Below the pieces are notes generated by a model. That model saw only the letters and a program-made list of their open reading frames with translations. It did not search any database and had not been told where the DNA came from. A DNA stretch of 64,000 nucleotides from Emcibacter sp. SYSU 3D8 (GTDB lineage Bacteria > Pseudomonadota > Alphaproteobacteria > SMXS01): the NCBI RefSeq assembly GCF_039655875.1, contig NZ_JBBYXK010000002.1:310001-374000 (forward strand), given 5' to 3'. Below are positions 15,392 through 34,015 of the stretch, one piece after another. The stretch's first letter is position 1, and each line of letters opens with the position of its first letter. The position numbers and the translations under genes were made by a program.

Positions 15392-15401
15392 GGCGCCTGC
15401 C

Positions 15402-18150: not shown

Positions 18151-19515
18151 TCAGGCTGACGCCGTCTGCGCCTCGATCCGCGCCAGGCTGGCGCGGTAGT
18201 GCTTCAGGCCCAGGATCAGCAGGATCACCCCGAACGGGATGCCGATGCAGTTGATCAGCGCCAGCGCCTCGCCCAGCATCTGCTCGTTACGGAAAACGTA
18301 GGTGGTGAGAAATCCCACCATCGTGCTGCCCAGGCTGATCCCCACCACACTCGACAGGAACACATAGAGCGCGCCGATCTTGGCGCGCATCTGGTTGGGC
18401 GTGATCGACAGCAGGGACGCGCCCGCCAGGCCCGCCGGGACCGCGCCCATGAACTGGCACGGACCGAGCAGGAACACCGCCCAGTCCAGGGTCGGCGACC
18501 ACAGGAAAGTCAGGGCGGCGACCGGTCCCAGCGGCGCAGTGCAGATCAGGCTGGCGCGAAGCATGGCGTCGGCATGACCCCGGCGCGCCAGATATCCGGC
18601 GAACCATCCCCCGAAGAATGTCCCCGAGGTGCCGCAGATCAGCAGCACCACGCCATACCAGTACCCGGCATGAATCTGGGTGGTGCCGAACTCGCGCACC
18701 AGATGCTGCACGACCCAGCCGAAATTGGCGTAGGCCACCAGAACCATGGTGGTGAAGGCGACGAGAATATGGGTGAACGTGCGGCCGTGGGATCGCAGGT
18801 GGCGGAAGAACTCGCCCATCTGGGCAGCGCCGCCGACCGCCTCCTCGCTGCGGATTCGGCCGCGGCGGAACGGCTCGCGAATGGTCAGGATCAGCACGGT
18901 CAGCAGCAAGCCGGGCAGGCCGACGCAGATGAAGGCGAGTTGCCACGGCCGCACTTCGCCCAGCAGCCAGACTTCGGTGATGCCGACGGTATTGATCGCG
19001 CCAAGCAGCGTGGCGCCCAGCATCAGCGCCAGGCCGATACCCGTGAGATTGCCCATGGTGAAGACGCTCATGGCCATGGCCAGCTTCTGCCGGGGAAAGT
19101 AGTCGCTGATGATCGAATAGGCCGATGGGCCCAGCGTCGCCTCGCCCACGCCGACGGTGATGCGGGCGACGAACAGATGGACAAAGTTCCCGGCGAGGCC
19201 GCAGGCGGCGGTGGCGAGGCTCCAGAACGTGACGCCCAGGGCGATGATATTGCGCCGGTTGAGCTGGTCCGCAGCCAGCGCGATGGGTACCGACATCAGC
19301 GCATAGAAGATGCCGAAGGGCGGACCCTGCAGCAGGCCGATCTCGAAATCGTTGAGACCCAGATCGGCTTTGATGTCGCTGACCATGATGGCGATGATCT
19401 GCCGATCGAGGAACGACACGATCGAGGCGATGAACAGGATGATGACCACATACCAGGCATAGGCCGGGTTAGGCCATGACGGCTCCGGCGGCCGGGCGGT
19501 GGGGGGTGCCTGCAT
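18151..19515 (-). CDS. Major facilitator superfamily transporter
   Basis: 454 aa with 12 predicted membrane segments. SFLDRQIIAIMVSDIKADLGL after helix 1 and ADQLNRRN in the loop 2-3 region are MFS marks; RITVGVGEATLGPSAYSIISDYFP resembles the spinster-like group often found beside degradation genes in sphingomonad-like bacteria. It would move a small organic compound across the inner membrane by proton coupling; the direction and substrate are unknown. It lies downstream of the TonB receptor array on the same strand, separated by a terminator, so it could form an outer/inner membrane uptake pair with the receptors. Confidence 0.88.
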   Translation of the reverse strand: MQAPPTARPPEPSWPNPAYAWYVVIILFIASIVSFLDRQIIAIMVSDIKADLGLNDFEIGLLQGPPFGIFYALMSVPIALAADQLNRRNIIALGVTFWSLATAACGLAGNFVHLFVARITVGVGEATLGPSAYSIISDYFPRQKLAMAMSVFTMGNLTGIGLALMLGATLLGAINTVGITEVWLLGEVRPWQLAFICVGLPGLLLTVLILTIREPFRRGRIRSEEAVGGAAQMGEFFRHLRSHGRTFTHILVAFTTMVLVAYANFGWVVQHLVREFGTTQIHAGYWYGVVLLICGTSGTFFGGWFAGYLARRGHADAMLRASLICTAPLGPVAALTFLWSPTLDWAVFLLGPCQFMGAVPAGLAGASLLSITPNQMRAKIGALYVFLSSVVGISLGSTMVGFLTTYVFRNEQMLGEALALINCIGIPFGVILLILGLKHYRASLARIEAQTASA

Positions 19516-19618
19516 GGGGGGCCTTCGGTTTGGCGGACGGTGCCGGAACGGCCCGCCCTTTTACTCGAGTTTGACCGAGCGGAAAAGTGGCTGGAGCCGT
19601 TGCCGGTCTCGTGGCCCC

Positions 19619-19648
19619 AAAAACAAGAACGGGCGCCGAAGCGCCCGT
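19619..19648 (-). terminator. UUCG-loop terminator after receptor copy A
   Basis: On the minus strand an 8-bp perfect stem (19629-19636 with 19641-19648) closes a TTCG tetraloop and is followed by TCTTGTTTTT. It terminates the receptor gene ending at 19672 before the MFS gene. Confidence 0.85.
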
Positions 19649-19662
19649 CCAGGTCGAGAATA

Positions 19663-22217
19663 ATGCGGCGTCTAGAAGTGGTAGGCCACTTCCAGGCCAT
19701 AGGTCCGCGGGCGACCATAGATGGTCATGTTCCACAGGCCGGCCACCGAGTTGGCGCCGATCCGCTTGTATTCGTTCAGGATGTTCTTCACGAACGCCGT
19801 CACGCGGTAACGGGAGTCGCGATCTTCCCAGGTGGCCGAGAAGTCCCACAGGAACCGGCTCTCCATCTGGGTGTTGAGCGAGTTGAACACCGAGGTTTCG
19901 GCGGTCGACTGGTAGTTGCCCGTCGTGTTCAGGGCCAGATGGCCACTGTCGGCGAGATCGATGTCATAGGTGATCGAGCCACCGATCTTCCACTTCGGCG
20001 AATACGGCACCTTCAGGTGCCTCAGGTCTTCGTTGATGAACCAGCCATTGGCCAGCGTGTAGCCGGTGTACAGACCGTCGCCGTTCCGGTCGAGCAGGAA
20101 CTGCTTGTACTTGTGGTCCATGTAGGCGGCCGAGAGGTCGATGTGCAACGCGTCGGTGGGCTGCCAGTTGATTTCAGCCTCGACGCCGATGTTGCGCGAC
20201 TTGCCGGCGTTCACGTTGATGGTTTCCTGGGTGGTGTTGCCGGCCACGTCGGTGTAGGGCACCACCTGCGAGCGGATCAGGTCGCTGTACTGGGTGTAGA
20301 ACACCGAGATGTTGGTCTGCAGCGAGTTGTCCAGCCAGCGGGCCTTCAGGCCCAGTTCCGCGTTCCAGTTCTTTTCGGGCTGGAAGGGAATGCAGGTTGT
20401 GGGGCTGGAGCAGGTCTCGGTGTAGCCGCCCGAGATGAAGCCGGTCGCGTAGCTGGCATAGACCATGGCTTCGTCGGTGACCTTGTAATCCACCACGGCG
20501 CGCCAGGTGATCCGGTCCCAATTGTCCTTGGTGTTGACGACCAGGCCGTACTGCTCGTCGGGAAGCGGGAGGACCCGGGGGTCGATGTCGACAGGCTCCA
20601 GACCACCACGCGAGATGACGTTGGAGCGGATGTCGCGGCAGGCGCCGTTGACGTCCGTCGACATGTGCTCGAACGGCGTGTACTGGTTGCACAGGCCGCC
20701 TGCATTGGCGCGGCGGAAGAAGCTCTTCTCGTCGAGCGTCCAGCGGACGCCGGCGGTGAAGCGCAGGCGATCGGTGACGTCATAGCTGCCGTCGAAATAG
20801 ACCGCGTATGTGGTCCGGTCCTGGCTGGCGCCGCCCGTGGCGGGATCGGTCAGATAGGACAGGTCGAGATTGATGAAGCCGCGGTCGTCCAGGAACGGAT
20901 TGCCGTTGATCGGCCGGCCGTAATAGTCATCGGTCTTCGGCAGCAGGCCGGACAGGCCCACGGTCGAGAACGCCCGCATGTCGACGTTGTCTTCCTGATA
21001 GGTGGCGCCGGCGACGAAGTTGAACGGACCGTCGAAATGGGTGGCGGCGCGCAACTCGACCTGGATCTGCTCGCGCTCCAGGTTGCGGCTGGCGTCGAAC
21101 AGGCTGTTGAAGGGCTCGCCCGGATAGGTGCTGGGCAGGATTTCCTTCTGCTCGCGATAGGCGGTGATCAGCTTGAAGTCGACGTCCTCGAGCTTCAGGG
21201 TCTGCTGCAGGTTGTAGCCCATCACCTTGACGTCATGGCCCGACGGGATGCAAAGCCCCTTGGTGTTGTTGTCGAGGCACTGGTTGTCGATGGCCGACAC
21301 CCACTTGCCCGGCTGGTTCACATCACGGCCATCGAAGCCCAGCAGCGGCATTAGCATGGATTGCGGGCCGCCATCCGGATCGATGGCGCCGATGGCCGGC
21401 GAATCGTTCTCGCTGACCACGGACTCCGAATTGTCCCGCAGCATTTCCACGATCAGGTAGGCTTCGTAATTGTCGGTCGGCGTGAACAGCACCTTGAACT
21501 TGCCGGCGAACACTTCGGTGCCGTTGGCACGGCCACCCGCCGCGCGGCCGCTGGTGCCGGGCAGCGCGAACAGTTCCGGCGGGAGCTGCGACGGCGACAA
21601 ACCGAACAGGCCATAGAACGGCACGTTGTTCGGCCAGCCGCTGGCGTCCTTGGTGTTGCTGTAATAGCCGTCGTCGTAGTCGTAGATGGCGGTCATGCGG
21701 ATCGCCAGCTTGTCCTCGACCACCGGCACGTTCACGGCGACCTTGCCCTTGCCGATCTTGCCGTTGTTGCTGTCGAACATGCCGATCTGGAATTCGATGT
21801 CGCCGGTGAATTCGTTCATCTCCGGACGCTTGGTGATGATCGAGATCGCGCCGCCGGTGGCATTCTTGCCGAACAGGGTGCCCTGCGGACCGCGGTAGAC
21901 CTCGACCCGTTCCACGTCGAACAGTTCGACGAACTGGGCCTGCACGTTGTTGAGGCCAAACTCGTCGACCAGGATGGCGACGGAACTGTCCTGGGTCACC
22001 AGGATGCCGTTCTGGCCGGTGCCGCGGATACCGCCCGAGACAGCGCGGAAGCCGGCCATCTGGCCAAGCGCCACACCGGCCGACATGTCCGATACCGCGA
22101 GAATATCGTTACGGAAGGTCTGCGCCAGGGCGGTTTCCGTGATCGCCGTGATGGCGATCGGCACTTCCTGGACGGATTCTTCGCGCTTGGTGCCCGACAC
22201 GGTGACGGACTCGAGGC
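19663..22217. repeat. Tandem duplicated block, copy A (about 2,555 bp)
   Basis: This block corresponds base for base to 22722-25276 (offset 3,059). No difference was seen in the rows compared directly, and the translations of both strands agree throughout. The match starts 9 bases past the stop codon and ends inside the codons after the signal peptide, where differences begin at 22218 and 22222. Both edges therefore lie at functional boundaries rather than in intergenic DNA. Confidence 0.9.
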
Positions 22218-22353
22218 CCTTCGCCATCGGCGCGCCAACGTTGGCGACAGGCGGCGGGACATTGTCCTGCGCGAATGCCGGTCCGGCAAGCATCCCTACG
22301 CCCATGGCCACGGCCATGGCGTAAGTGCTCGCCCTTGTTCTGATGTCCCTCAT
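19672..22353 (-). CDS. TonB-dependent outer-membrane receptor, tandem copy A
   Basis: 893 aa. Signal peptide of about 28 residues (core YAMAVAMGVGMLAGPA, cut after AFA-QD), then a linker and the plug beginning LESVTVSGTKREESVQEVP, containing VEVYRGPQGTLFGKNATGG, and a large beta-barrel ending in GLEVAYHF. From Leu47 to the end (847 residues) it appears identical to copy B, while the first 46 residues, the leader and the promoter differ. It is the OMR-type receptor with an iron-complex-receptor-like fold; the ligand is unknown. GGGGAGG lies just before the ATG. The identical part suggests a very recent duplication or gene conversion. Confidence 0.94.
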   Translation of the reverse strand: MRDIRTRASTYAMAVAMGVGMLAGPAFAQDNVPPPVANVGAPMAKGLESVTVSGTKREESVQEVPIAITAITETALAQTFRNDILAVSDMSAGVALGQMAGFRAVSGGIRGTGQNGILVTQDSSVAILVDEFGLNNVQAQFVELFDVERVEVYRGPQGTLFGKNATGGAISIITKRPEMNEFTGDIEFQIGMFDSNNGKIGKGKVAVNVPVVEDKLAIRMTAIYDYDDGYYSNTKDASGWPNNVPFYGLFGLSPSQLPPELFALPGTSGRAAGGRANGTEVFAGKFKVLFTPTDNYEAYLIVEMLRDNSESVVSENDSPAIGAIDPDGGPQSMLMPLLGFDGRDVNQPGKWVSAIDNQCLDNNTKGLCIPSGHDVKVMGYNLQQTLKLEDVDFKLITAYREQKEILPSTYPGEPFNSLFDASRNLEREQIQVELRAATHFDGPFNFVAGATYQEDNVDMRAFSTVGLSGLLPKTDDYYGRPINGNPFLDDRGFINLDLSYLTDPATGGASQDRTTYAVYFDGSYDVTDRLRFTAGVRWTLDEKSFFRRANAGGLCNQYTPFEHMSTDVNGACRDIRSNVISRGGLEPVDIDPRVLPLPDEQYGLVVNTKDNWDRITWRAVVDYKVTDEAMVYASYATGFISGGYTETCSSPTTCIPFQPEKNWNAELGLKARWLDNSLQTNISVFYTQYSDLIRSQVVPYTDVAGNTTQETINVNAGKSRNIGVEAEINWQPTDALHIDLSAAYMDHKYKQFLLDRNGDGLYTGYTLANGWFINEDLRHLKVPYSPKWKIGGSITYDIDLADSGHLALNTTGNYQSTAETSVFNSLNTQMESRFLWDFSATWEDRDSRYRVTAFVKNILNEYKRIGANSVAGLWNMTIYGRPRTYGLEVAYHF

Positions 22354-22730
22354 GGAACCTCCCCAAATGTTTGTTACAGCGTTCCGGCTTGTGCCGGTCC
22401 TTGATTTCGTTTTCCGTGGAGAATCCCAGCAGCGGCAGCGCGTAAAAGTATCCAGTTCAGATGCTTTTTTAGCCCCTGTCTTCCGGCTAGTTTACGCGCA
22501 ATCCGGGCCCTTCGGCTGCCCCACGCCCTATGGACGTCTGTTGAGTTTCCCCACTTCCATTGGCTCACGCACCAAAAAAATCAGCCTGTGCGGTTACCAA
22601 TCGATCTGACGATAATTCAAATCGCGGCGGGCGTCACCTCAAAAATCAAGCGTGATTGTATGATGCCGACGAGCGGAAAAGAAAGCGGGCGCCGAAGCGC
22701 CCGCCGGTAGCAAAGCAAAGGATGCGGCGT
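22354..22730. other. 377-bp gap between receptor copies A and B
   Basis: No gene is seen. Near 22354-22364 is the GGGGAGG ribosome site of copy A. The middle is unrelated to the gap upstream of copy B and should contain the copy A promoter. The far end (22677-22704) holds the terminator of copy B. Composition is less GC-rich than in the genes, mostly around 22560-22660. Confidence 0.6.
22677..22704 (-). terminator. UUCG-loop terminator after receptor copy B
   Basis: Minus-strand stem GCGGGCGC / GCGCCCGC (22685-22692 with 22697-22704) with a TTCG loop, then TTTCTTTT. The stem differs in sequence from that after copy A although the loop and layout are the same. Confidence 0.82.
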
Positions 22731-25276
22731 CTAGAAGTGGTAGGCCACTTCCAGGCCATAGGTCCGCGGGCGACCATAGATGGTCATGTTCCACAGGCCG
22801 GCCACCGAGTTGGCGCCGATCCGCTTGTATTCGTTCAGGATGTTCTTCACGAACGCCGTCACGCGGTAACGGGAGTCGCGATCTTCCCAGGTGGCCGAGA
22901 AGTCCCACAGGAACCGGCTCTCCATCTGGGTGTTGAGCGAGTTGAACACCGAGGTTTCGGCGGTCGACTGGTAGTTGCCCGTCGTGTTCAGGGCCAGATG
23001 GCCACTGTCGGCGAGATCGATGTCATAGGTGATCGAGCCACCGATCTTCCACTTCGGCGAATACGGCACCTTCAGGTGCCTCAGGTCTTCGTTGATGAAC
23101 CAGCCATTGGCCAGCGTGTAGCCGGTGTACAGACCGTCGCCGTTCCGGTCGAGCAGGAACTGCTTGTACTTGTGGTCCATGTAGGCGGCCGAGAGGTCGA
23201 TGTGCAACGCGTCGGTGGGCTGCCAGTTGATTTCAGCCTCGACGCCGATGTTGCGCGACTTGCCGGCGTTCACGTTGATGGTTTCCTGGGTGGTGTTGCC
23301 GGCCACGTCGGTGTAGGGCACCACCTGCGAGCGGATCAGGTCGCTGTACTGGGTGTAGAACACCGAGATGTTGGTCTGCAGCGAGTTGTCCAGCCAGCGG
23401 GCCTTCAGGCCCAGTTCCGCGTTCCAGTTCTTTTCGGGCTGGAAGGGAATGCAGGTTGTGGGGCTGGAGCAGGTCTCGGTGTAGCCGCCCGAGATGAAGC
23501 CGGTCGCGTAGCTGGCATAGACCATGGCTTCGTCGGTGACCTTGTAATCCACCACGGCGCGCCAGGTGATCCGGTCCCAATTGTCCTTGGTGTTGACGAC
23601 CAGGCCGTACTGCTCGTCGGGAAGCGGGAGGACCCGGGGGTCGATGTCGACAGGCTCCAGACCACCACGCGAGATGACGTTGGAGCGGATGTCGCGGCAG
23701 GCGCCGTTGACGTCCGTCGACATGTGCTCGAACGGCGTGTACTGGTTGCACAGGCCGCCTGCATTGGCGCGGCGGAAGAAGCTCTTCTCGTCGAGCGTCC
23801 AGCGGACGCCGGCGGTGAAGCGCAGGCGATCGGTGACGTCATAGCTGCCGTCGAAATAGACCGCGTATGTGGTCCGGTCCTGGCTGGCGCCGCCCGTGGC
23901 GGGATCGGTCAGATAGGACAGGTCGAGATTGATGAAGCCGCGGTCGTCCAGGAACGGATTGCCGTTGATCGGCCGGCCGTAATAGTCATCGGTCTTCGGC
24001 AGCAGGCCGGACAGGCCCACGGTCGAGAACGCCCGCATGTCGACGTTGTCTTCCTGATAGGTGGCGCCGGCGACGAAGTTGAACGGACCGTCGAAATGGG
24101 TGGCGGCGCGCAACTCGACCTGGATCTGCTCGCGCTCCAGGTTGCGGCTGGCGTCGAACAGGCTGTTGAAGGGCTCGCCCGGATAGGTGCTGGGCAGGAT
24201 TTCCTTCTGCTCGCGATAGGCGGTGATCAGCTTGAAGTCGACGTCCTCGAGCTTCAGGGTCTGCTGCAGGTTGTAGCCCATCACCTTGACGTCATGGCCC
24301 GACGGGATGCAAAGCCCCTTGGTGTTGTTGTCGAGGCACTGGTTGTCGATGGCCGACACCCACTTGCCCGGCTGGTTCACATCACGGCCATCGAAGCCCA
24401 GCAGCGGCATTAGCATGGATTGCGGGCCGCCATCCGGATCGATGGCGCCGATGGCCGGCGAATCGTTCTCGCTGACCACGGACTCCGAATTGTCCCGCAG
24501 CATTTCCACGATCAGGTAGGCTTCGTAATTGTCGGTCGGCGTGAACAGCACCTTGAACTTGCCGGCGAACACTTCGGTGCCGTTGGCACGGCCACCCGCC
24601 GCGCGGCCGCTGGTGCCGGGCAGCGCGAACAGTTCCGGCGGGAGCTGCGACGGCGACAAACCGAACAGGCCATAGAACGGCACGTTGTTCGGCCAGCCGC
24701 TGGCGTCCTTGGTGTTGCTGTAATAGCCGTCGTCGTAGTCGTAGATGGCGGTCATGCGGATCGCCAGCTTGTCCTCGACCACCGGCACGTTCACGGCGAC
24801 CTTGCCCTTGCCGATCTTGCCGTTGTTGCTGTCGAACATGCCGATCTGGAATTCGATGTCGCCGGTGAATTCGTTCATCTCCGGACGCTTGGTGATGATC
24901 GAGATCGCGCCGCCGGTGGCATTCTTGCCGAACAGGGTGCCCTGCGGACCGCGGTAGACCTCGACCCGTTCCACGTCGAACAGTTCGACGAACTGGGCCT
25001 GCACGTTGTTGAGGCCAAACTCGTCGACCAGGATGGCGACGGAACTGTCCTGGGTCACCAGGATGCCGTTCTGGCCGGTGCCGCGGATACCGCCCGAGAC
25101 AGCGCGGAAGCCGGCCATCTGGCCAAGCGCCACACCGGCCGACATGTCCGATACCGCGAGAATATCGTTACGGAAGGTCTGCGCCAGGGCGGTTTCCGTG
25201 ATCGCCGTGATGGCGATCGGCACTTCCTGGACGGATTCTTCGCGCTTGGTGCCCGACACGGTGACGGACTCGAGGC
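22722..25276. repeat. Tandem duplicated block, copy B (about 2,555 bp)
   Basis: Partner of 19663-22217, direct orientation, start-to-start distance 3,059 bp. The lack of visible differences over this length at synonymous as well as coding positions means either a very young duplication or ongoing gene conversion. It also makes this spot prone to assembly collapse or copy-number change by recombination. Confidence 0.9.
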
Positions 25277-25421
25277 GCTTGGCCATCGGCGCGCCGGCAG
25301 GCGCCGCCGCGGCAGGACCGGGCGGAGGGTTCTGCGCCAGGGCCGGCGCGGCAATCAAGGGTGCGCCCATGGCCACGGCCAAGGCGCACACGCTTATGGT
25401 GTGTCTGATTGAAAGCTTCAT
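22731..25421 (-). CDS. TonB-dependent outer-membrane receptor, tandem copy B
   Basis: 896 aa. Signal peptide with core TISVCALAVAMGAPLIAAPALA and cut near ALAQ-N, then a Pro/Ala-rich linker (PPPGPAAAAPAGAP) and, from Leu50 on, 847 residues that appear identical to copy A. The plug has DSSVAILVDEFGLNNVQAQF and the TLFGKNATGG turn. Being identical in the ligand-binding barrel, the two copies should import the same compound; only export signal and expression can differ. GGGGGGAG precedes the ATG. It lies between copy A and the diverged third receptor on the same strand, each behind its own gap of 380-400 bp. Confidence 0.94.
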   Translation of the reverse strand: MKLSIRHTISVCALAVAMGAPLIAAPALAQNPPPGPAAAAPAGAPMAKRLESVTVSGTKREESVQEVPIAITAITETALAQTFRNDILAVSDMSAGVALGQMAGFRAVSGGIRGTGQNGILVTQDSSVAILVDEFGLNNVQAQFVELFDVERVEVYRGPQGTLFGKNATGGAISIITKRPEMNEFTGDIEFQIGMFDSNNGKIGKGKVAVNVPVVEDKLAIRMTAIYDYDDGYYSNTKDASGWPNNVPFYGLFGLSPSQLPPELFALPGTSGRAAGGRANGTEVFAGKFKVLFTPTDNYEAYLIVEMLRDNSESVVSENDSPAIGAIDPDGGPQSMLMPLLGFDGRDVNQPGKWVSAIDNQCLDNNTKGLCIPSGHDVKVMGYNLQQTLKLEDVDFKLITAYREQKEILPSTYPGEPFNSLFDASRNLEREQIQVELRAATHFDGPFNFVAGATYQEDNVDMRAFSTVGLSGLLPKTDDYYGRPINGNPFLDDRGFINLDLSYLTDPATGGASQDRTTYAVYFDGSYDVTDRLRFTAGVRWTLDEKSFFRRANAGGLCNQYTPFEHMSTDVNGACRDIRSNVISRGGLEPVDIDPRVLPLPDEQYGLVVNTKDNWDRITWRAVVDYKVTDEAMVYASYATGFISGGYTETCSSPTTCIPFQPEKNWNAELGLKARWLDNSLQTNISVFYTQYSDLIRSQVVPYTDVAGNTTQETINVNAGKSRNIGVEAEINWQPTDALHIDLSAAYMDHKYKQFLLDRNGDGLYTGYTLANGWFINEDLRHLKVPYSPKWKIGGSITYDIDLADSGHLALNTTGNYQSTAETSVFNSLNTQMESRFLWDFSATWEDRDSRYRVTAFVKNILNEYKRIGANSVAGLWNMTIYGRPRTYGLEVAYHF

Positions 25422-25822
25422 TCGGATTCTCCCCCCGATACGCTTTGTGACACTGGCGGCTTCCGGACTCTCTGCTCCGGTTACCCCCCAGTAAGCGGAC
25501 GATACAAAGCAGACACTGCGGCGTCATCAACAAAGATCAGACATGAATGTATTTTTTCTGTTTTCCGCCTTTCGTGCTCTTTATGCAACACCCCCAGACA
25601 TCTTCGAGCCTAAAACCACTGATGACCCAAGGGGTATCCTGTGTTTTCCGGAACCATGCAAACTCGCACCTCATTTGCGGAAACATCACATTAAAACAGT
25701 CCCTAATGTTCTTTTCTTTCGTCTCTCTAGGTCACGAAAAAAGGGCGGACGCCGAAGCGCCCGCCCTAAAGTGTCAGTCGGATTCGTAAGGCGCGGCGTC
25801 GCCGCCGCACCCTTCGAACGGC
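25422..25822. other. 401-bp gap between receptor copy B and receptor C
   Basis: No gene is seen. It contains the GGGGGGAG ribosome site of copy B near 25430-25437, a CCGGA/TCCGG inverted repeat close by (25464-25481), and a markedly AT-rich stretch about 25535-25735 in an otherwise GC-rich window. The AT-rich part is likely the copy B promoter region. The far end holds the terminator of receptor C. Confidence 0.55.
25737..25766 (-). terminator. UUCG-loop terminator after receptor C
   Basis: Minus-strand stem GGGCGG plus CGC with one mismatch (25743-25752 with 25757-25766), TTCG loop, then TTTTTT (25737-25742). It is the third terminator of this layout in the receptor array. Confidence 0.85.
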
Positions 25823-28480
25823 TTAGAACTTGACGCCGAATTCAGCGCCGAATTCACGCGGACGGCCCCACATGGTGAAGTTCCACAGGCCGGCCACCGA
25901 ATTGGCGCCTGTGCGATACCGCTCGTCGAGGATGTTCTTGACGTAGGCGGTCACGCGGTACCGTTCGTTGAGGTCGCGCCAGGTGACACTGGCGTCCCAC
26001 AGGGTGCGGTCGCTGTACTGGGTGTACAGCGAGTTGAACACCGACGATTCGGATTCCGACGTGTAGTTGACGGAGGTGTTCCAGGTCAGCGTGCCCGCAT
26101 TGCCGACCAGCATGTCGTAGGTCACGCCGGCGCTGACTTTCCAGCGCGGCGAGAACGGCACCGACAGGTCCGACAGATCCTGGCCGCCCAGCATGAACTC
26201 CAGGTACTTGTGGTCCATGAAGCCCACGGTGAAGTCGAACCGCAGATCGTTGGTCGGCACCCAGGTGGCTTCCAGCTCGACGCCCAGGTTGCGCGACTTG
26301 CCGGCGTTAATGTTGGTGGTTTCCTGGGTGGTCAGGCCGAACGGATCGGTGAACGGCACCACCTGCGAGCGCACCAGGTTGGAGTAGCGGGTGTAGTAGA
26401 ACGAGAGGTTGGTCTGCAGGGTCTGGTCGAAGAACCGCGCCTTGATGCCGGTTTCGGCATTCCAGTTGGTTTCCGACTCATAAGGCGCGCAGGTGGTGAT
26501 GCTGGAGCAGGTCTCGGTGAAACCGCCGGGGATGAAACCGGTCGAATAGCTGGCATAGACCATGGCGTCGTCCCAGGCCTGATAATCCAGCACCGCACGC
26601 CAGGTGAGCTTGTCCCAGTTGTCGTGGAAGGTGTTGTTGATGCCGAAGGCGCTGTCCGGCAGCGGCAGATTGTGCGGATCCGCATCGGCGATGGTGAAGC
26701 CGCCGCCCACGCGGGAGATGGTGTTCGAGCGCTTGTCGAGACAGACGCCGCCCACGGTCACCTGGTCGCGCGCCGGCGTATTGGCGGTGCACGGACCGCC
26801 CGCATTGGCCCGGCGGAAGAACGTCTTCTCGTCGAACGTGTAGCGGCCGCCCAGGGTGAAGCGGAGCCGGTCGGTGATGTCGTAATGGCCGTCGGCGTAG
26901 ATCGCGTAGGTGTTACGCTTCTGGCGGGCGCCGGTCATGGTCGGGTCGTTGATGTAGTCGAGGTTCAGATTGATGAACCCGCGGTCGTCCAGGAACGGGT
27001 TGCCGTTGGCCGGGTTGCCCAGCGCCGTGTCGGTCTGGGGCAGCAGGCTCGAGAGGCCGACCGTCGAGTAGGCCAGCATGTCGGTCTTGTCGTAGGTGTA
27101 GACCAGGCCGGATACGAAGTTGAACGGACCGTCGAAGGTGGTCGATCCGCGCAGCTCGACCTGGACCGAGTTGCGGGTGGTGTTGCGCGAGCTGTCGAAC
27201 AGCGACAGGAAGGCTTCGCCCGTATAGGTGTCCGGCAGGATTTCCGTGGTGTGGCGATAGGCCGTGATGAGCTTCAGGTTGAAGCTGTCATAGGTCAGCT
27301 GCTGCTGCAGATTGTAGGCCTCGACACTGACCCGGTGCCCCTTGGTCTGGCAAAACGCGCTGCCGCCGGGGCAGTTGTTCGTTGTGCCGGTGCTGTAGAC
27401 GTCGGTCTGGCCCGTGGTGTGGATACCGTCGAAGCCCAGCCGCGCCAGCGTGAACACCGACGGATTGTTGCGCACGAAGGTGCCGTTGGAAAGACGCGTC
27501 ACGCCCGAATCGATCTGGCCCAGTGCCGGCGTTTCGTTGACGCCGGGCACGGCCTCGGACCGGTCGCGCAGGAACTCGAAGATGAAATAGGCTTCGTAGT
27601 GATCGGTCGGCGTGAACAGCACCTTGAACTTCGAGGCGAAGGTATCGGTGCCGTTGAGGCGCTCGCCGCCACCCTTCTTGGCGGTGTTCAGCTCGGGCGG
27701 CAGCGGCGGATTGGCCGTCGGCAACCCATAGAGCGAATAGATCGGAATGTTGTCGGGAAACGCACTGGCGGCCTTGTCGTTGCGGAAAAAGCCGTCATCG
27801 TAGTCGTAGAGAGCGGTAAAGCGGAACGCCAGCTTGTCGTCGACGACCGGAATGTTCAGGGCCAGCTTGCCCTTGCCGATCATGCCGCCGCCCTTGCTGT
27901 CGAACTTGCCGATCTGGCCCTCGATCGCACCGGAGAATTCGTTCATCTCCGGCCGCTTGGTGACGATGGAAATGGCGCCGCCGGTGGCCGACTTGCCGAA
28001 CAGGGTGCCCTGCGGACCGCGATAGATCTCGACCCGATCGACGTCGAACATCTCGACGAACTGCGACTGGACGCTGGTCAGCGCGAAATCGTCGAGCAAC
28101 AGCACGACCGAGCTGTCCTGGGTGGTCAGAATGCCGTTCTGGCCCGTGCCGCGGATACCGCCGGCGACCGCGCGGAAGCCCGGCACCTGGCCAAGCTGCA
28201 CGCCAGGCGACAGGTCGGATACGGCCAGGATGTCGGTGCGGAAGGTATTGGCCAACTGCGACGCGGAAATCGCCGACAGGGCGATCGGCACGTCCTGCGC
28301 CAACTCATCGCGCTTGGTGCCCGAGACGGTCACCGATTCCAGCGAGCCGACAGACGCACGGTCAGGTGCGGCGGACGGAAGCGCGGCAGGCGCGTCGCTC
28401 TGGGCGAAAACCGGTGACCATGCACCCGCAATAGCCAATGCTATAGACGCGCACAGCGCGCGCCTTGATGAAGCACTCAT
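25823..28480 (-). CDS. TonB-dependent outer-membrane receptor, diverged third member
   Basis: 885 aa. Signal peptide (core LCASIALAIAGAWSPVFA, cut before QSD), a plug with LESVTVSGTKRDELAQDVPIALSA and VEIYRGPQGTLFGKSATGG, and a barrel with many blocks parallel to copies A and B (such as NVFSFRRANAGG-like and YASYSTGFIPGG). The C-terminus is FGVKF. It is a clear but diverged paralogue, with different extracellular loops (for example around residues 320-400), so its ligand may differ or be related. It is first in the receptor array and faces the ABM/P450 cluster across a 349-bp shared promoter region. Confidence 0.94.
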   Translation of the reverse strand: MSASSRRALCASIALAIAGAWSPVFAQSDAPAALPSAAPDRASVGSLESVTVSGTKRDELAQDVPIALSAISASQLANTFRTDILAVSDLSPGVQLGQVPGFRAVAGGIRGTGQNGILTTQDSSVVLLLDDFALTSVQSQFVEMFDVDRVEIYRGPQGTLFGKSATGGAISIVTKRPEMNEFSGAIEGQIGKFDSKGGGMIGKGKLALNIPVVDDKLAFRFTALYDYDDGFFRNDKAASAFPDNIPIYSLYGLPTANPPLPPELNTAKKGGGERLNGTDTFASKFKVLFTPTDHYEAYFIFEFLRDRSEAVPGVNETPALGQIDSGVTRLSNGTFVRNNPSVFTLARLGFDGIHTTGQTDVYSTGTTNNCPGGSAFCQTKGHRVSVEAYNLQQQLTYDSFNLKLITAYRHTTEILPDTYTGEAFLSLFDSSRNTTRNSVQVELRGSTTFDGPFNFVSGLVYTYDKTDMLAYSTVGLSSLLPQTDTALGNPANGNPFLDDRGFINLNLDYINDPTMTGARQKRNTYAIYADGHYDITDRLRFTLGGRYTFDEKTFFRRANAGGPCTANTPARDQVTVGGVCLDKRSNTISRVGGGFTIADADPHNLPLPDSAFGINNTFHDNWDKLTWRAVLDYQAWDDAMVYASYSTGFIPGGFTETCSSITTCAPYESETNWNAETGIKARFFDQTLQTNLSFYYTRYSNLVRSQVVPFTDPFGLTTQETTNINAGKSRNLGVELEATWVPTNDLRFDFTVGFMDHKYLEFMLGGQDLSDLSVPFSPRWKVSAGVTYDMLVGNAGTLTWNTSVNYTSESESSVFNSLYTQYSDRTLWDASVTWRDLNERYRVTAYVKNILDERYRTGANSVAGLWNFTMWGRPREFGAEFGVKF

Positions 28481-28829
28481 TAAGGAACCCCCTTCGGTTC
28501 TGGTGGTTGTCGCGCCCGGTTGACCCGGGTCGCCTTGCTACGCGGCGGACAATAGTCGCGTGAAATCAATCACGTCACGCAAAACCGTTCACGCGTGACT
28601 TTTGAAAACGACAAACCTGAACCGTGTGGCGGCAAAGCAACAAATCGACAATCGGGCCTATTTGTTTCCGGCAGTGCGGCGCCCTCGCCGGCAGCCCGCA
28701 AGCACACCCGTTAACGCTTGACTTGGCGGTGCGCGCAGCCCCACACTCGCCACAACAATCACGCATGAAGGTTTCATGGGGCGACGGGAAGCGCCCTGGG
28801 GAGCCCCAGAAAAAACGGGGACGGCAGGC
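28481..28829. promoter_or_regulatory. Divergent promoter region between receptor C and the ABM/P450 cluster
   Basis: 349 bp with no gene seen. It contains an inverted repeat GTCACGC/GCGTGAC (28574-28580 with 28593-28599) overlapping a perfect palindrome TCACGCGTGA (28589-28598). The 17-base segment there, CCGTTCACGCGTGACTT (28585-28601), recurs with two mismatches as CCGTTAACGCTTGACTT at 28708-28724. Such a repeated palindromic site between divergent operons is what a shared regulator would need. No regulator gene lies directly beside it. Confidence 0.4.
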
Positions 28830-29237
28830 ATGGCGACGATTCTGGCGCACATCCAGATCAGGCCGGGCAAGGAAGCCCGGTTCGAGGAATTGCAGGGCGC
28901 GCTGTGGCGCAGCACGCATGCGAACGAGCCGGACACCACCCGCTACGAGTTCTTCCGCGGCGAAAAGGAAGGCTGGTACTACGGCCTGCTGTCGTTCAAG
29001 GACTTTCAGGCTTTCCTGGTGCACCAGTCCAGTGATGCCCACGAGGAATTCGGCGGCCAGTTCGGCGACGTGGTGCAGGACATCCGTATCGAATGGGTCG
29101 ACGCCATCGAGGGCGCCAACGCGCTTGCACCGACCGCGCCGCAGGACGCCCCGCCGGGCGCCAGCGACCTGGTCCGGAAATACAGCAAGGACTATGCGGT
29201 GCGCATGGCCGACTGGTGGAAAGCGCTGCGCAACTAG
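28830..29237 (+). CDS. ABM-like small protein 1 (dimeric alpha-beta barrel)
   Basis: 135 aa. MATILAHIQIRPGKEARFEELQ opens like antibiotic-biosynthesis-monooxygenase/quinol monooxygenase proteins; TRYEFFRGEKEGWYYGLLSF and a HQSSDAH segment fit the barrel's later strands and His-rich helix. After residue 100 there is a tail, PPGASDLVRKYSKDY...DWWKALRN, longer than in normal ABM proteins and shared with the next gene. Function is unknown; the family includes cofactor-free monooxygenases and isomerase-like proteins. The ATG at 28830 aligns with the next gene's start. It is first in the P450 cluster, 20 bp before its paralogue. Confidence 0.82.
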   Translation: MATILAHIQIRPGKEARFEELQGALWRSTHANEPDTTRYEFFRGEKEGWYYGLLSFKDFQAFLVHQSSDAHEEFGGQFGDVVQDIRIEWVDAIEGANALAPTAPQDAPPGASDLVRKYSKDYAVRMADWWKALRN

Positions 29238-29662: not shown

Positions 29663-29696
29663 GGTGCGCCGCGGCCGAAGAGACAGCGAGGAAGCC

Positions 29697-30935
29697 ATGA
29701 ACCAGGAAAAAATCGACATTCGCCTGCTTGATCCGGCCAGTGTCGAGTGCCCCTATCACGACTACCAGCGGCTGCGCGAGGAAGCGCCGGTCTACCGGAT
29801 GCCGGAGACCGGCTGGTACGTGGTCACGGCCTACGATCTGTGCCGCAAGGTGGCGAAGGACTGGGAGACGTTCTCGGATCAGCTCAGCGACTGGTCGCAG
29901 GAAACCCTGTGGAAGAACCCGGAAATCCCGGCGATCTTCGAGAACGAGGGCTGGCCCCGCGACCAGATCCTGTCGCGCGATCCACCGCTGCACGACATGT
30001 ACCGGAGCCTGGTGGACGTCTCGTTCACCAAGAGCCGGATCGACGCCGTGGAGCCGTTCATCACCGGCCTGGTCAATGAGCTGATCGACAAGTTCATCGA
30101 CAAGGGCGAGTGCGACTTCATCATGGATTTCGCCTACCCCCTGCCCATGCACGTCATCGCCGACCGGCTGGGCCTGCCGGCCGAGGACCTGCCCAGACTG
30201 AAATTCTGGTCCGAGGAATGGGTGCTGCCGCACGCCCACACCATGAGCGAGCAGCGCGAGGTGGAATGCGCCCGCAACATCGTCGAACTGCAGCGCTACC
30301 TGGCCGAAAAGTTCGAGGAAAAGCGGCTGAACCGCGACGACCGGATCATCAGCGACCTGGTGCACGGCAAGTTCAACGGCGAGCGCGACCTGACCACCCG
30401 CGAGATCATGTCCATGGTCGAGCAACTGCTCGTGGGCGGCAACGAAACCACCACCAACGCCATGTCGTCGGGCATGATGCTGCTGATCCAGAATCCGGAC
30501 CAGTATGCGCTGGTCCAGGAAGACCCGAAGCTGATCAAGAACTTCGTCGAGGAAGTGCTGCGGGTCGAAAGCCCGACCCAGGGCATCTTCCGTGTCGCCG
30601 TGAAGGATGTTGAACTGGGCGGCGTGATGATCCCGCGCGGCTCCATGATCAACATGCGCTTCGGGGCCGCCAACCGCGATCCCAAGGTATTCGCCGAACC
30701 GGACCGGCTCGACGTCTGCCGCAAGAACGCCGGCGCGCATCTGGCCTTCAGCACGGCCGAGCATCATTGTGTGGGTGCGCCTTTGACCCGGCAGGAAATG
30801 AACATCGCCTTCAAGATCCTGTTCCAGCGGATGAAGAACTTCCGCTTCGCCGAGGGCAAGAACGACTTCCAGCACCAGGGCAATTTCATGGTGCGCGCCC
30901 TGAAGCACCTGCACGTCACTTTCGAGAAGCGTTGA
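29697..30935 (+). CDS. Cytochrome P450
   Basis: 412 aa. I-helix GGNETTTN, K-helix EVLR, and the heme loop FSTAEHHCVG with Cys358. The usual Phe-x-x-Gly opening of the heme loop is FSTA here, a mild departure from its two paralogues. PIMH-type N-terminal blocks CPYHDYQRLREEAPVYR place it with the P450s at 3887 and 40527, but it is the most distant of the three. GAGGAA before ATG 29697 fixes the start. The next gene begins 4 bases after its stop, so it is tightly coupled with an MDR reductase. No ferredoxin or reductase is encoded nearby. Confidence 0.93.
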   Translation: MNQEKIDIRLLDPASVECPYHDYQRLREEAPVYRMPETGWYVVTAYDLCRKVAKDWETFSDQLSDWSQETLWKNPEIPAIFENEGWPRDQILSRDPPLHDMYRSLVDVSFTKSRIDAVEPFITGLVNELIDKFIDKGECDFIMDFAYPLPMHVIADRLGLPAEDLPRLKFWSEEWVLPHAHTMSEQREVECARNIVELQRYLAEKFEEKRLNRDDRIISDLVHGKFNGERDLTTREIMSMVEQLLVGGNETTTNAMSSGMMLLIQNPDQYALVQEDPKLIKNFVEEVLRVESPTQGIFRVAVKDVELGGVMIPRGSMINMRFGAANRDPKVFAEPDRLDVCRKNAGAHLAFSTAEHHCVGAPLTRQEMNIAFKILFQRMKNFRFAEGKNDFQHQGNFMVRALKHLHVTFEKR

Positions 30936-30939
30936 TCCC

Positions 30940-31971
30940 ATGACCACACTCCGCAATGACAGCCGCAACCGCCAGCTCTTCATGACCCGGTTTCCCAAGG
31001 GCGAAGCCGGGCCCGGCGACTTCGAGGTGCGCGAGGCGCCGATGCCGGAGCCCAAGGATGGCGAGGTGCTGGTCGAGATCCAGTACCTGTCCGTCGACGC
31101 GGCGCTGCGGCTGATCATGCGCGACAGCAAGGACTTCCTGTTCCGGGTCCAGCCCGGCGACCTGGTGCGCGGCGGCGTGGCCGGCAAGGTGGTCGAATCC
31201 CGCAACCCCAAATTCAAGCAGGGCGACTATGTCACCGGCGGTCTGGGCGTACAGAATTATGCCGTCTCCGACGGCACCGGTCTCGAGAAGGTCGACACCT
31301 CCATCGCACCGCTCCCGCAATGGCTGGGCGGCATGGGCGTATCCGGCCTGACCGCCTATTTCGCCGTCACCGAGGAATGCAAGCCGGGCCCCGGCCACAC
31401 CATGGTGGTGAACGGCGCGGCCGGCGCCGTCGGCTCCATCGCCGGGCAGATCGGCCGGATCATGGGCGCCAGGGTGATCGGCATCACCGGCAGCGATGAG
31501 AAGGCCCGCTGGCTGACCGACGAACTGGGGTTCGACGTGGCCATCAACTACAAGAAGGGCGACCTTTACGAGCAATTGGTGGAAGCCGCGCCCGACCGCA
31601 TCAATTCGATCTTCGACAATGTGGGCGGCGATATCCTCAACGAGAGCCTGCGCTGGATTGCCCTGCGCGGCACGGTTCTGCTGTGCGGCTCGACGTCGCA
31701 ATACACACAGGAAAAGATGGAAGGCCCCAGCAATTATATCTGGCTGGGCACCATGCGCGCCCGGATGCAGGGCTTCGTGGTCTACGACTATGCGGACAAA
31801 TTCGCCGCCGCCCAGCAGCAACTCGCGGCCTGGGTAAAGGACGGCAAGCTGGTGATGCGGGAAAATATCGTCGACGGCGACGTTGGCGACTTTCCGGACG
31901 TATTCCAGCGGCTCTATCATGGCGAGAACCGGGGCAAGATGGTGATCCGCCTGCCGGCGGCGACCGCCTAG
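30940..31971 (+). CDS. NADP-dependent MDR oxidoreductase, enone reductase-like
   Basis: 343 aa zinc-independent MDR protein. FEVREAPMPEPKDGEVLVEIQYLSVD, a Rossmann VNGAAGAVGSIAGQIGRIMG and SIFDNVGGDILNESL are seen. It belongs with the pair at 14378-16418 but is clearly distinct (RLIMRDSKDF instead of AMRGWM). Likely role: NADPH reduction of a carbon-carbon double bond next to a carbonyl, within the P450 operon. The stop is followed 36 bp later by an SDR gene. Confidence 0.9.
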   Translation: MTTLRNDSRNRQLFMTRFPKGEAGPGDFEVREAPMPEPKDGEVLVEIQYLSVDAALRLIMRDSKDFLFRVQPGDLVRGGVAGKVVESRNPKFKQGDYVTGGLGVQNYAVSDGTGLEKVDTSIAPLPQWLGGMGVSGLTAYFAVTEECKPGPGHTMVVNGAAGAVGSIAGQIGRIMGARVIGITGSDEKARWLTDELGFDVAINYKKGDLYEQLVEAAPDRINSIFDNVGGDILNESLRWIALRGTVLLCGSTSQYTQEKMEGPSNYIWLGTMRARMQGFVVYDYADKFAAAQQQLAAWVKDGKLVMRENIVDGDVGDFPDVFQRLYHGENRGKMVIRLPAATA

Positions 31972-32007
31972 AAACAATCCACAGGGAAGTTGAAAGGAAC
32001 AAACGGG

Positions 32008-32787
32008 ATGGGTGCTCTCGATCTATTCAAGCTGGACGGCAAGGTTGCCGTCATCACGGGTGCGGGCAAGGGCATCGGCCGGGGCATCGCGCTCGCGCTG
32101 GCCGAAGCGGGCGCCGACATCGCCGTTGCCTCGCGCAGCAAGGACGAACTGGACCGGGTGGTCAAGGAAGTGCAGGAGCGCGGCCGCCGCGCCATCGCGG
32201 TGCCGACCGATGTGACCAAGATGGAATTCCTCGAGAACCTGGCCAAGCGCACCCAGGACGAACTGGGCGGTCTCGATATCTGGGTGAACAATGCCGGCGG
32301 CCTGCCCGACGGCATTCCGCGCTGGCTGACCCGCACGTCGGAAGAGCAGTTCATGGCGCAGATTGACCTGAACATCAAAGCGGTGTGGGCGGGCTGCGTG
32401 GTCGCGGCCAAGGCCATGGGCGACAAGGGCGGCGCCATCGTCAACATCTCGTCGCGCGCGGCCAAGGACATGGGCCCGAACCTGAAGAATGGTCCGTACG
32501 GCGCATCGAAGTCGGCAGTGAACAGCCTGACCGCCACCTTCTCGCGCGAATTGGCCCCGAAGATCCGCGTCAACGCGGTGGCGCCGGGCCCGATCCCGAC
32601 CGAGAACTTCATCGATTCCATGAAGATGCACACGCCCGAGCGCGAGGCCGAGCTGAAGGAATATATCAAGCTCCCGCTCGAGCGCTGGGGCACGCCCGAG
32701 GACATCGGCGCCGCCGTACTCTACATGTCCTCGCCCGCGTCGGGCTGGGTGACCGGCCAGTGCCTCTATGTCACCGGCGGCTCCTGA
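32008..32787 (+). CDS. Short-chain dehydrogenase/reductase
   Basis: 259 aa classical SDR. Cofactor loop TGAGKGIGRG, NNAGG after strand 4, catalytic Ser of NISSRAA and the Y-x-x-x-K pair in PYGASKSAV. The start ATG 32008 follows AAAGGAACAAACGGG; a TTG further upstream in frame is less likely. It would oxidise an alcohol or reduce a ketone with NAD(P). The C-terminus ends VTGGS as in most SDRs. It is followed 7 bp later by an iron-type alcohol dehydrogenase, so two dehydrogenases may act in sequence. It closely resembles the SDR at 41866, suggesting the P450-SDR set was duplicated. Confidence 0.92.
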   Translation: MGALDLFKLDGKVAVITGAGKGIGRGIALALAEAGADIAVASRSKDELDRVVKEVQERGRRAIAVPTDVTKMEFLENLAKRTQDELGGLDIWVNNAGGLPDGIPRWLTRTSEEQFMAQIDLNIKAVWAGCVVAAKAMGDKGGAIVNISSRAAKDMGPNLKNGPYGASKSAVNSLTATFSRELAPKIRVNAVAPGPIPTENFIDSMKMHTPEREAELKEYIKLPLERWGTPEDIGAAVLYMSSPASGWVTGQCLYVTGGS

Positions 32788-32794
32788 GCCACGC

Positions 32795-33961
32795 ATGCCT
32801 TCGGGCAGCTACGACTACATTCCGCAGGAACGCATCGTCTTCGGCCGCCCGTCGGCCGAGGCGATCGCGGCGGAAGCGGCGCGCCTGGGCAAGAATCGCC
32901 TGTTCATCGTCACCGCCAGGTCGCTGAACCGCAAAACGCCGGCCATCGCCGACCTGCGGGCGGCGCTGGGCGACCTCGTCGTCGGTCTCTATGACGACTG
33001 CATCGCGCACACGCCGCGCGAGACCGTGCTTGACTGCGCCGACGCGGTCCGCGCCGCGAACGCCGACCTGATCGTCACCATCGGCGGCGGCACCGCCATC
33101 GACATGGTCAAGACGGTGCAGATCTGCATCGCCGAGGACGTGCGCACCATCGAGGGCATGGACGCGTGGCATACACGGGTCAATCCGGACGGCACCTATG
33201 TCACGCCGAAGACGAAGCCGTCGACCGTGCGGCAGATCATCGTGCCGACGACCCTGTCGGGTGCCGAGTTCAGCACCATCGCCGGCGTCACCGACCTCAG
33301 GAAGCATTTCAAGGACGGCTTCGTCGGCACCAACTCGGCCGGCCAGGTCATCATCCTCGATCCGGCGATGACGGTGCACACGCCGGAATGGCTGTGGCTG
33401 TCGACCGGCATCCGCGGCTTCGATCACGCGGTCGAGGGCATCTGCTCGATCAAGGCCAATCCGTTCATCACCGGCTGCTGCCGCCAGGCGATCGAGATGT
33501 TCCGCGTCAACCTGCCGCGCACCAAGGCCGACCCGAACGACCTCGAGGCCCGTCTCGCCTGCCAGCAGGCCACCTGGATCGCCGGCCACGGCATCGACCG
33601 CGCGCCCTACGGCGCGTCCCACGGCATCGGCGGCGTGCTGGGCGGCATGAAGGAGGTGCCGCACGGCTATACCTCCTGCATCCTGCTGCCGCACGTGCTG
33701 CGCTACAACAAGCCGGTGACCGAAGAGGCGCAGCGCTATGTCGCGGCCGCCTTCGGCAAGCCCGAAGAAGACGCCGCCGACTTGGTGCACGATTTCATCG
33801 GCAGTCTCGGCCTGCCCCAGACGCTGCGCGACGTGGGCGTGAGCCGCGGCGATTTCGACGGCATCGCCAGCCGGAGCGTGGCCAGCATGTGGGTGCGCAC
33901 CAACCCGCGCCCGTTGCCCGACGTGGAGTCGGTGAAAGCCATACTCGAAGCTGCCTATTGA
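32795..33961 (+). CDS. Iron-containing alcohol dehydrogenase / maleylacetate reductase-like
   Basis: 388 aa group III dehydrogenase. IGGGTAIDMVK binds NAD(P); the metal site Asp is in LDPAMTVHTP and the His ligands in FDHAVEG and ASHGIGG. The central segment VPTTLSGAEFST is close to maleylacetate reductases and other GGGTA-type members. It may oxidise an alcohol made by the P450 or reduce a ring-cleavage product. No ring-cleavage dioxygenase is in the window. The start at 32795 has no strong ribosome site but sits 7 bases after the SDR stop, consistent with coupling. Confidence 0.88.
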   Translation: MPSGSYDYIPQERIVFGRPSAEAIAAEAARLGKNRLFIVTARSLNRKTPAIADLRAALGDLVVGLYDDCIAHTPRETVLDCADAVRAANADLIVTIGGGTAIDMVKTVQICIAEDVRTIEGMDAWHTRVNPDGTYVTPKTKPSTVRQIIVPTTLSGAEFSTIAGVTDLRKHFKDGFVGTNSAGQVIILDPAMTVHTPEWLWLSTGIRGFDHAVEGICSIKANPFITGCCRQAIEMFRVNLPRTKADPNDLEARLACQQATWIAGHGIDRAPYGASHGIGGVLGGMKEVPHGYTSCILLPHVLRYNKPVTEEAQRYVAAAFGKPEEDAADLVHDFIGSLGLPQTLRDVGVSRGDFDGIASRSVASMWVRTNPRPLPDVESVKAILEAAY

Positions 33962-34015
33962 CTTGCGCCGTGCCCCGGGCACGCTGCGCCTCAAGAAACT
34001 CTCAGGGATCAGACG

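Follow-up and report, generated by a model that had tools for sequence, protein, structure and literature searches.

The stretch analysed here (the window) comprises 64,000 nucleotides of the Emcibacter sp. SYSU 3D8 genome (contig NZ_JBBYXK010000002.1, positions 310,001 to 374,000) and carries a tandem array of three TonB-dependent receptor genes, two of which share an identical mature part behind different signal peptides and upstream regions. All three genes lie on the minus strand and are transcribed in the order C, B, A: receptor C (885 aa, 25823..28480), receptor B (896 aa, 22731..25421) and receptor A (893 aa, 19672..22353). The array is bounded by conserved flanks, namely an MFS transporter gene on the A side (18151..19515, minus strand, PF07690), matched in 7 of the 7 relative loci compared, and a cytochrome P450 gene on the C side (29664..30935, plus strand, PF00067), matched in 5 of the 7; between C and the latter lies a divergent gene for an ABM-domain protein (28776..29237, plus strand, PF03992). 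Plug and barrel domains were found above the Pfam gathering score in both B and C, with 49.0 bits for the plug PF07715 (cut-off 23.9) and 135.1 bits for the barrel PF00593 (cut-off 27) in B. Inspected by eye, the translation of B shows a putative signal peptide ending in ALAQ and then LESVTVSGT, a putative TonB box. The mature part (hereafter the body) of C is 61.1% identical in amino acids to that of A and B, and a protein search of the genome gave matches of 98-100% at two places only, the next being C with 60%.

Base-by-base alignment confirmed what had been claimed from the sequence alone, that the two neighbours share one receptor body: positions 19663..22217 (copy A) and 22722..25276 (copy B), both on the minus strand, agree at 2,555/2,555 bp, with no synonymous or other difference, in the single assembly (17 contigs, genome of 4.07 Mb) on which both the identity and the copy number rest. 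As had also been proposed, the repeat covers the mature protein and the stop codon, running from just before LESVTVSGT to 9 bp beyond the TAG stop. The upper 95% bound on the divergence of the two bodies is 0.12% (0/2,555). The sharp end described at the linker holds in so far as the exact match can be extended at neither side, but beyond its 5' end there follows a homologous linker of 19 bp with two mismatches (22218..22236 in A, 25277..25295 in B). The chance that both A/B mismatches fall in this 19-bp edge is 5e-5, and the edge may represent the margin of the last conversion round within an older one. Both ends of the repeat stop at or near the limit of homology, a pattern that neither one unequal crossover nor a plain tandem duplication would be expected to give.

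The sequence-only reading had described the leaders, promoters and terminator stems of A and B as unrelated. This description stands for the promoters in so far as they do not align over their length (z 0.6; all upstream z-scores are based on 40 mononucleotide shuffles each). Homology is nevertheless present between the two signal peptides, and both genes carry an operator-like element; on these two grounds, a single conversion onto an unrelated neighbour appears a poorer picture than recurrent conversion in an old array. The signal peptides comprise 29 codons in A (22267..22353) and 30 codons in B (25332..25421), assuming from the sequence cleavage after AFAQ and ALAQ, respectively. Their DNA is 68% identical over 87 nt, with an alignment score of 27, whereas 500 codon shuffles gave at most 11. 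When the spacer and leader of A were used as a query, the best other match in its own genome was the B leader, with 70% identity including the linker; in the ten family genomes the matches listed consisted of the query itself, the B leader and short fragments, many of them at the terminator hairpin. The 250 bp upstream of A reach a z of at most 2.9 with any other upstream region in the set. Two further features of the A leader region were observed: about 180 nt more separate the element from the start codon than in B or C (22354-22630), and a small inverted repeat without an Rfam match lies near the ribosome-binding site (22384-22397). Scanning of 19400-28800 for a consensus sigma-70 promoter revealed no promoter-like site, and no RNA family was found in the window at the Rfam gathering thresholds.

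Terminator-like hairpins follow A (19627..19650), B (22684..22705) and C (25742..25767), all on the minus strand. The first two have the core GGGCGCTTCGGCGCCC in common, and the third carries a one-base variant of it. Of the 16 receptors, 8 are followed by this core and five more by near variants, as recognised by eye. Fragments similar to the GGGCGCTTCGGCGCCC hairpin are also present elsewhere in these genomes. It thus appears to be a common terminator type, and its sharing by A and B is weak evidence of descent because similar hairpins are common in these genomes.

One copy of the operator-like element, with the pattern TCAYGNNTGA..TGACG, is located on the minus strand upstream of each receptor gene: 302 nt before the start of A (22632..22655), 125 nt before B (25522..25546) and 118 nt before C (28573..28598), the last between the divergent C and ABM genes. 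These three are the only exact matches both in the window and in the whole 4.07-Mb genome. In the ten family genomes this pattern, itself drawn from the same sequences, has 10 exact matches, 9 of which are situated just upstream of receptors of this array (three in the source genome, two in G006 and one each in G001, G002, G003 and G004), the tenth lying elsewhere in G009; the reversed pattern, used as a control, has none. Among first-order Markov resamples of the A upstream region, 4 of 200,000 contained the element. An exact copy is found within 400 bp upstream of 9 of the 16 receptors, leaving seven without it, of which G002_1 has a degenerate copy; an 80-bp block holding this copy accounts for the upstream similarity of G002_1 to receptor B (z 12.8). 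The common element points to partly shared control of A, B and C, through which one regulator may act.

The comparison covered six further genomes from the genus, among them G005 (78% complete), which yielded no close match, and three from the wider family, among them G009, which yielded none either; G000 denotes the source genome, and G000A, G000B and G000C its receptors A, B and C. At the same place, seven family genomes carry one receptor (G004, G001, G008 and G007), two (G002 and G006) or four (G003). When 385 genomes of the class were searched at E<=1e-130, four relatives at 41-43% identity were obtained outside the genus. In four same-genome pairs the bodies are more similar than across genomes: the amino acid identity is 100% for A/B, 91.7% for G002_1/G002_2 (93.5% for DNA), 82.2% for G003_2/G003_4 and 80.9% for G006_1/G006_2, each value exceeding the best cross-genome identity of the members of the same pair (90.6, 78.3, 78.5 and 79.6%, respectively).

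The body tree, which leaves out G007_1 and G003_3, contains an A/B clade (G000A, G000B, G004, G001, G003_2 and G003_4; support 100/99) and a C clade (G000C, G002_1, G002_2, G006_1 and G006_2; support 100/100). The leaders are partitioned differently. The B-type leader is present in G000B, in the single copies of G004 and G001, in G002_2 and, by signal peptide only, in G003_4, with upstream links of B to G002_2 (z 28.5), G004 (z 18.4) and G001 (z 12.6). The C-type leader is shared by G000C, G003_2 and G006_1, with upstream links between C and G003_2 (z 27.9), G003_2 and G006_1 (z 14.9), and C and G006_1 (z 8.1). Several high z-scores between types, involving G003_3, G003_4 and G006_2, were traced to the terminator hairpin of the preceding gene and were excluded from leader typing. 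The two partitions disagree, as in G002_2 a B-type leader precedes a C-clade body and in G003_2 a C-type leader precedes an A/B-clade body. When the body tree is constrained to leader-type clades, approximately unbiased (AU) tests reject it (p 0.0009 and 0.0006). These p-values apply to groups that were defined, by translations and z-scores, once the body identities were known; in the second test the identical rows A and B, which lay on both sides, were left free. The clearest case is G002 versus G004, both with a B-type leader: six flanking genes are 90.5-96.5% identical and the signal peptides 66%, while the bodies behind them, 69.5% identical, belong to different paralogue types. The types that recur across genomes in both leader and upstream region are B and C, which implies that these leader types predate the species compared; for the A leader, none of these relatives has a separate equivalent.

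Within the multi-copy relatives, the upstream z-scores are 0.2 for G003_2/G003_4 and 0.1 for G006_1/G006_2, and only a diverged block (z 10.0) is shared by G002_1/G002_2. Copies that share their upstream region at the divergence of their bodies, which the sequence-only reading had named as evidence against itself, were thus not seen in G002, G003 or G006. A separate observation made by eye in these sets concerns three different bodies (L046 gene 1 in G003, L051 gene 1 in G006 and L023:4768-7590 in G007) that have the same extra N-terminal extension of about 80-100 residues after the signal peptide, a module that seems to move between bodies.

Conversion tracts were sought by comparing the longest run of identical silent sites with 2,000 permutations in 10 genes (45 pairs), with G000A, identical to B, and the remote bodies G007_1, G003_3, G003_1, G008_1 and G003_r left out. 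Apart from A/B, three same-genome pairs have both members in one body clade, and all three show long runs, with uncorrected p-values of 0.003 (G003_2 and G003_4), 0.0035 (G002_1 and G002_2) and 0.0085 (G006_1 and G006_2). A similar tendency was obtained for another receptor array, located in the source genome on contig 2 near 1.00 Mb and compared with similar arrays in G001, G002, G003 and G006 (14 genes, 91 pairs): same-genome pairs reached p<=0.05 in 4 of 16 cases, two of them with 0/1,000 permutations, and cross-genome pairs in 2 of 75 (uncorrected). Of 12 receptor stretches retrieved from outside the locus, five were tested for tracts. In the same array (G000:C2:999500-1011500, L044), the G002 counterpart (L048) contains two copies with a common run of 111 silent sites.

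The same-genome pairs have also retained differences, with silent:replacement codon counts of 62:70 in G002, 184:150 in G003_2/G003_4 and 123:160 in G006, compared with 164:80 for G000B vs G004. Replacements are densest, in residues of B, at 560-579 for G002 and at 460-539 and 560-619 for G006, and are spread in G003. Some of these dense bins may be surface loops; a structure prediction of B from six sequences (mean pLDDT 38.4) was too poor to place the loops. Selection may keep some differences while the remainder is homogenised, which we regard as a lead and not as a result.

These observations are very probably explained by recurrent gene conversion of receptor bodies within an old tandem array, behind promoters and signal peptides that are retained. 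Of the original proposal that the mature part was converted, the process itself is supported by the decoupling of leaders and bodies, the silent-site runs and the edges of the repeat, but not its form as one event. Under this explanation, A, B and, further back, C would derive from tandem duplications in which promoter, signal peptide and receptor were copied together. Promoters and signal peptides would since have diverged, each staying with its own gene, apart from the operator-like element, and the bodies would have been repeatedly overwritten by a neighbouring copy, presumably by homologous repair. Conversion would halt where homology ends, at the linker and just past the stop codon, and its last round in the window would have left A equal to B. 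The same process in the relatives could have placed a C-clade body behind the B-type leader of G002_2 and an A/B-clade body behind the C-type leader of G003_2. In terms of concerted evolution by gene conversion, paralogues of one genome are nearer to each other than to orthologues by amino acid identity in four pairs and not for G000C, silent-site similarity is arranged in tracts, and position-specific orthology (the B and C leader types and the AU rejection) places the duplication before the species split.

A number of results weigh against this interpretation. Receptor C is not paired with A/B, its nearest body being G006_1 (79.6%), and no tract was detected between G000B and G000C (p 0.08). 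Besides the identical A/B, only the G002 copies are strongly supported as sisters in the body tree (100/100); the support is 74/79 for G006_1/G006_2, and G003_2/G003_4 are not resolved as sisters. Among cross-genome pairs, 1 of 41 has a significant longest run (G000B and G004_1, p 0.0075) and 3 of 41 fall below 0.05 by the sum of squared runs; none of the run-test p-values is corrected for multiple testing. A leader type could be assigned to only 8 of the 16 receptors: A is B-like by its signal peptide alone, and G002_1, G006_2, G003_1, G003_3, G003_r, G008_1 and G007_1 have no type. Cross-type upstream scores of G007_1 with three C-type upstream regions (z 5.6-6.9) are unexplained, and G003_4 has a B-type signal peptide without the B-type upstream region and without the element. 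The origin of the operator pattern makes its match count partly circular, and the exact identity of A and B is known from one assembly only. Finally, the G004 body is 88.5% identical in DNA to G000 versus 82.1% to G001, opposing the pairing of G004 with G001 by signal peptide (94%), by a nearly equal upstream region and by flanks (91.9-96.1%) at loci L016 and L017; lateral replacement or paralogue sorting thus also acts, and this case could be a further body exchange, perhaps between lineages.

The G004 case and the significant run between G000B and G004_1 are what would be expected if bodies had been exchanged mainly between cells, by lateral allelic replacement anchored in the flanks, instead of between neighbours. 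We consider this unlikely as the main process, since import alone neither makes paralogues of the same genome nearest by identity in G000 (A/B), G002, G003 and G006 nor generates same-genome silent-site runs. It is somewhat less likely that the body of B was recently duplicated to a new place, where it picked up another leader and terminator. A very recent copy would fit the zero differences, and the A upstream region indeed resembles no other in the set beyond the z of 2.9. However, the ends of A belong to the array, as indicated by the B leader as its best match and by the array's own element; differing ends with breaks at the homology limits would be expected of conversion, whereas one crossover would carry one flank; and in the relatives, leaders and bodies are likewise decoupled although the copies there are older and not identical.

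An assembly artefact, in which a single body would have been entered a second time or minor differences evened out, is slightly less probable again. Such errors can arise when an assembler passes twice along one repeat edge or collapses minor bubbles, and the 17-contig assembly has no detected 16S gene, which may weakly hint at a metagenome bin; the same search was positive in only 9 of 14 control genomes, so this argument is weak. Against an artefact, three distinct unique stretches within a 1.06-Mb contig flank and separate the copies, the spacer between A and B holds its own leader, element and terminator, and the copies in the same-place arrays of G002, G003 (a genome of two contigs) and G006 differ from each other and so cannot stem from one copy entered twice. 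Tandem duplications that arose independently in each lineage, with only the leaders diverging fast, which would agree with bodies nearest within genomes by identity and with a copy number at the locus varying from 1 to 4, are the least probable alternative, as leaders and upstream regions of the same type recur in different genomes, so that the types predate the species, and the AU tests reject matching body clades.

Recurrent conversion within the array may have consequences for receptor expression. A, B and C are intact open reading frames, each with an element upstream, and judged from these features they do not look like silent donor copies of a cassette system for antigenic or phase variation. 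More tentatively, and with less confidence than in conversion itself, the array can be pictured as a set of fixed, co-regulated expression slots, each with a promoter, signal peptide and terminator of its own and all with one operator in common. Neighbouring slots would pass bodies to each other in both directions, even between paralogue types, other arrays of the genus behaving likewise. If so, a lineage could quickly change which receptor each slot expresses. Different expression of A and B would be a possible selected benefit; conversion might also raise dosage or spread an improved receptor.

The neighbouring genes provide a hint at function. The P450 gene is followed by genes for a zinc-type reductase, an SDR, an Fe-ADH and an AMP-binding, acyl-CoA synthetase-like protein (30940..35587, plus strand), a set that suggests breakdown of a hydrophobic compound, which the receptors may import; several co-regulated control regions would then supply receptor for the substrate of these P450, dehydrogenase and acyl-CoA-synthetase-like genes. 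Comparison with solved siderophore, heme and B12 receptors in PDB gave partial matches only (best E 9.8e-16), the receptor reached no NCBIfam cut-off among the matches listed, and neither resource names a substrate. The array-specific operator-like element should lead to the regulator and hence to the substrate. Elsewhere in the window, adjacent zinc-type oxidoreductase open reading frames with the same Pfam make-up (PF16884 and PF00107) occupy 14378-16418 and overlap at 15402-15472; they form a tandem pair, in which one start is perhaps set too far upstream. TonB-dependent receptors are annotated and compared by whole-gene similarity, and orthology is used to guess their substrate and regulation; in this array leader and promoter have a history different from that of the receptor, so that whole-gene orthology would mislead on both.

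The closest published parallels are with the babA/babB and homA/homB genes of Helicobacter pylori (PMC3960876), likewise outer-membrane protein paralogues in which one segment is alike within a strain and another is not, and which include conversion chimeras. In those adhesin genes, as described there, a 3' segment is homogenised between separate loci, whereas the array affects neighbouring TonB-dependent receptors over almost their entire mature part, with the leader spared. The tufA/tufB genes of Salmonella (PMC5485169) similarly have near-identical coding regions maintained by conversion, but they are housekeeping genes of one type and, unlike the array, show no replacement between paralogue types in that account. 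Conversion of tuf is reported there to be processive, to be blocked where sequences differ greatly and to become less frequent through mismatch repair. By analogy, these properties would fit the A/B breaks at the limits of homology, and would make frequent rounds between similar copies likelier than a single transfer to a neighbour that has diverged strongly. Long-lasting concerted evolution in prokaryotes has been described for 26 genes (PMC6053082), in which paralogues of the same genome are nearer to each other than to orthologues; frequent short-term cases are recorded for outer-membrane protein genes (PMC6053082, PMC3960876), and dosage is argued for other concerted genes in the Discussion of the former. 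The word TonB does not occur in the main text of PMC6053082, and a tandem arrangement as found here lets the leaders mark position. No description of gene conversion or concerted evolution of TonB-dependent receptors was found in the titles and abstracts of the literature searched, which does not prove that none exists. As a process, concerted evolution through gene conversion is well established; the adjacent copies of the present array, with independent 5' markers, make it a tractable natural case for measuring gene conversion beyond tuf and H. pylori.

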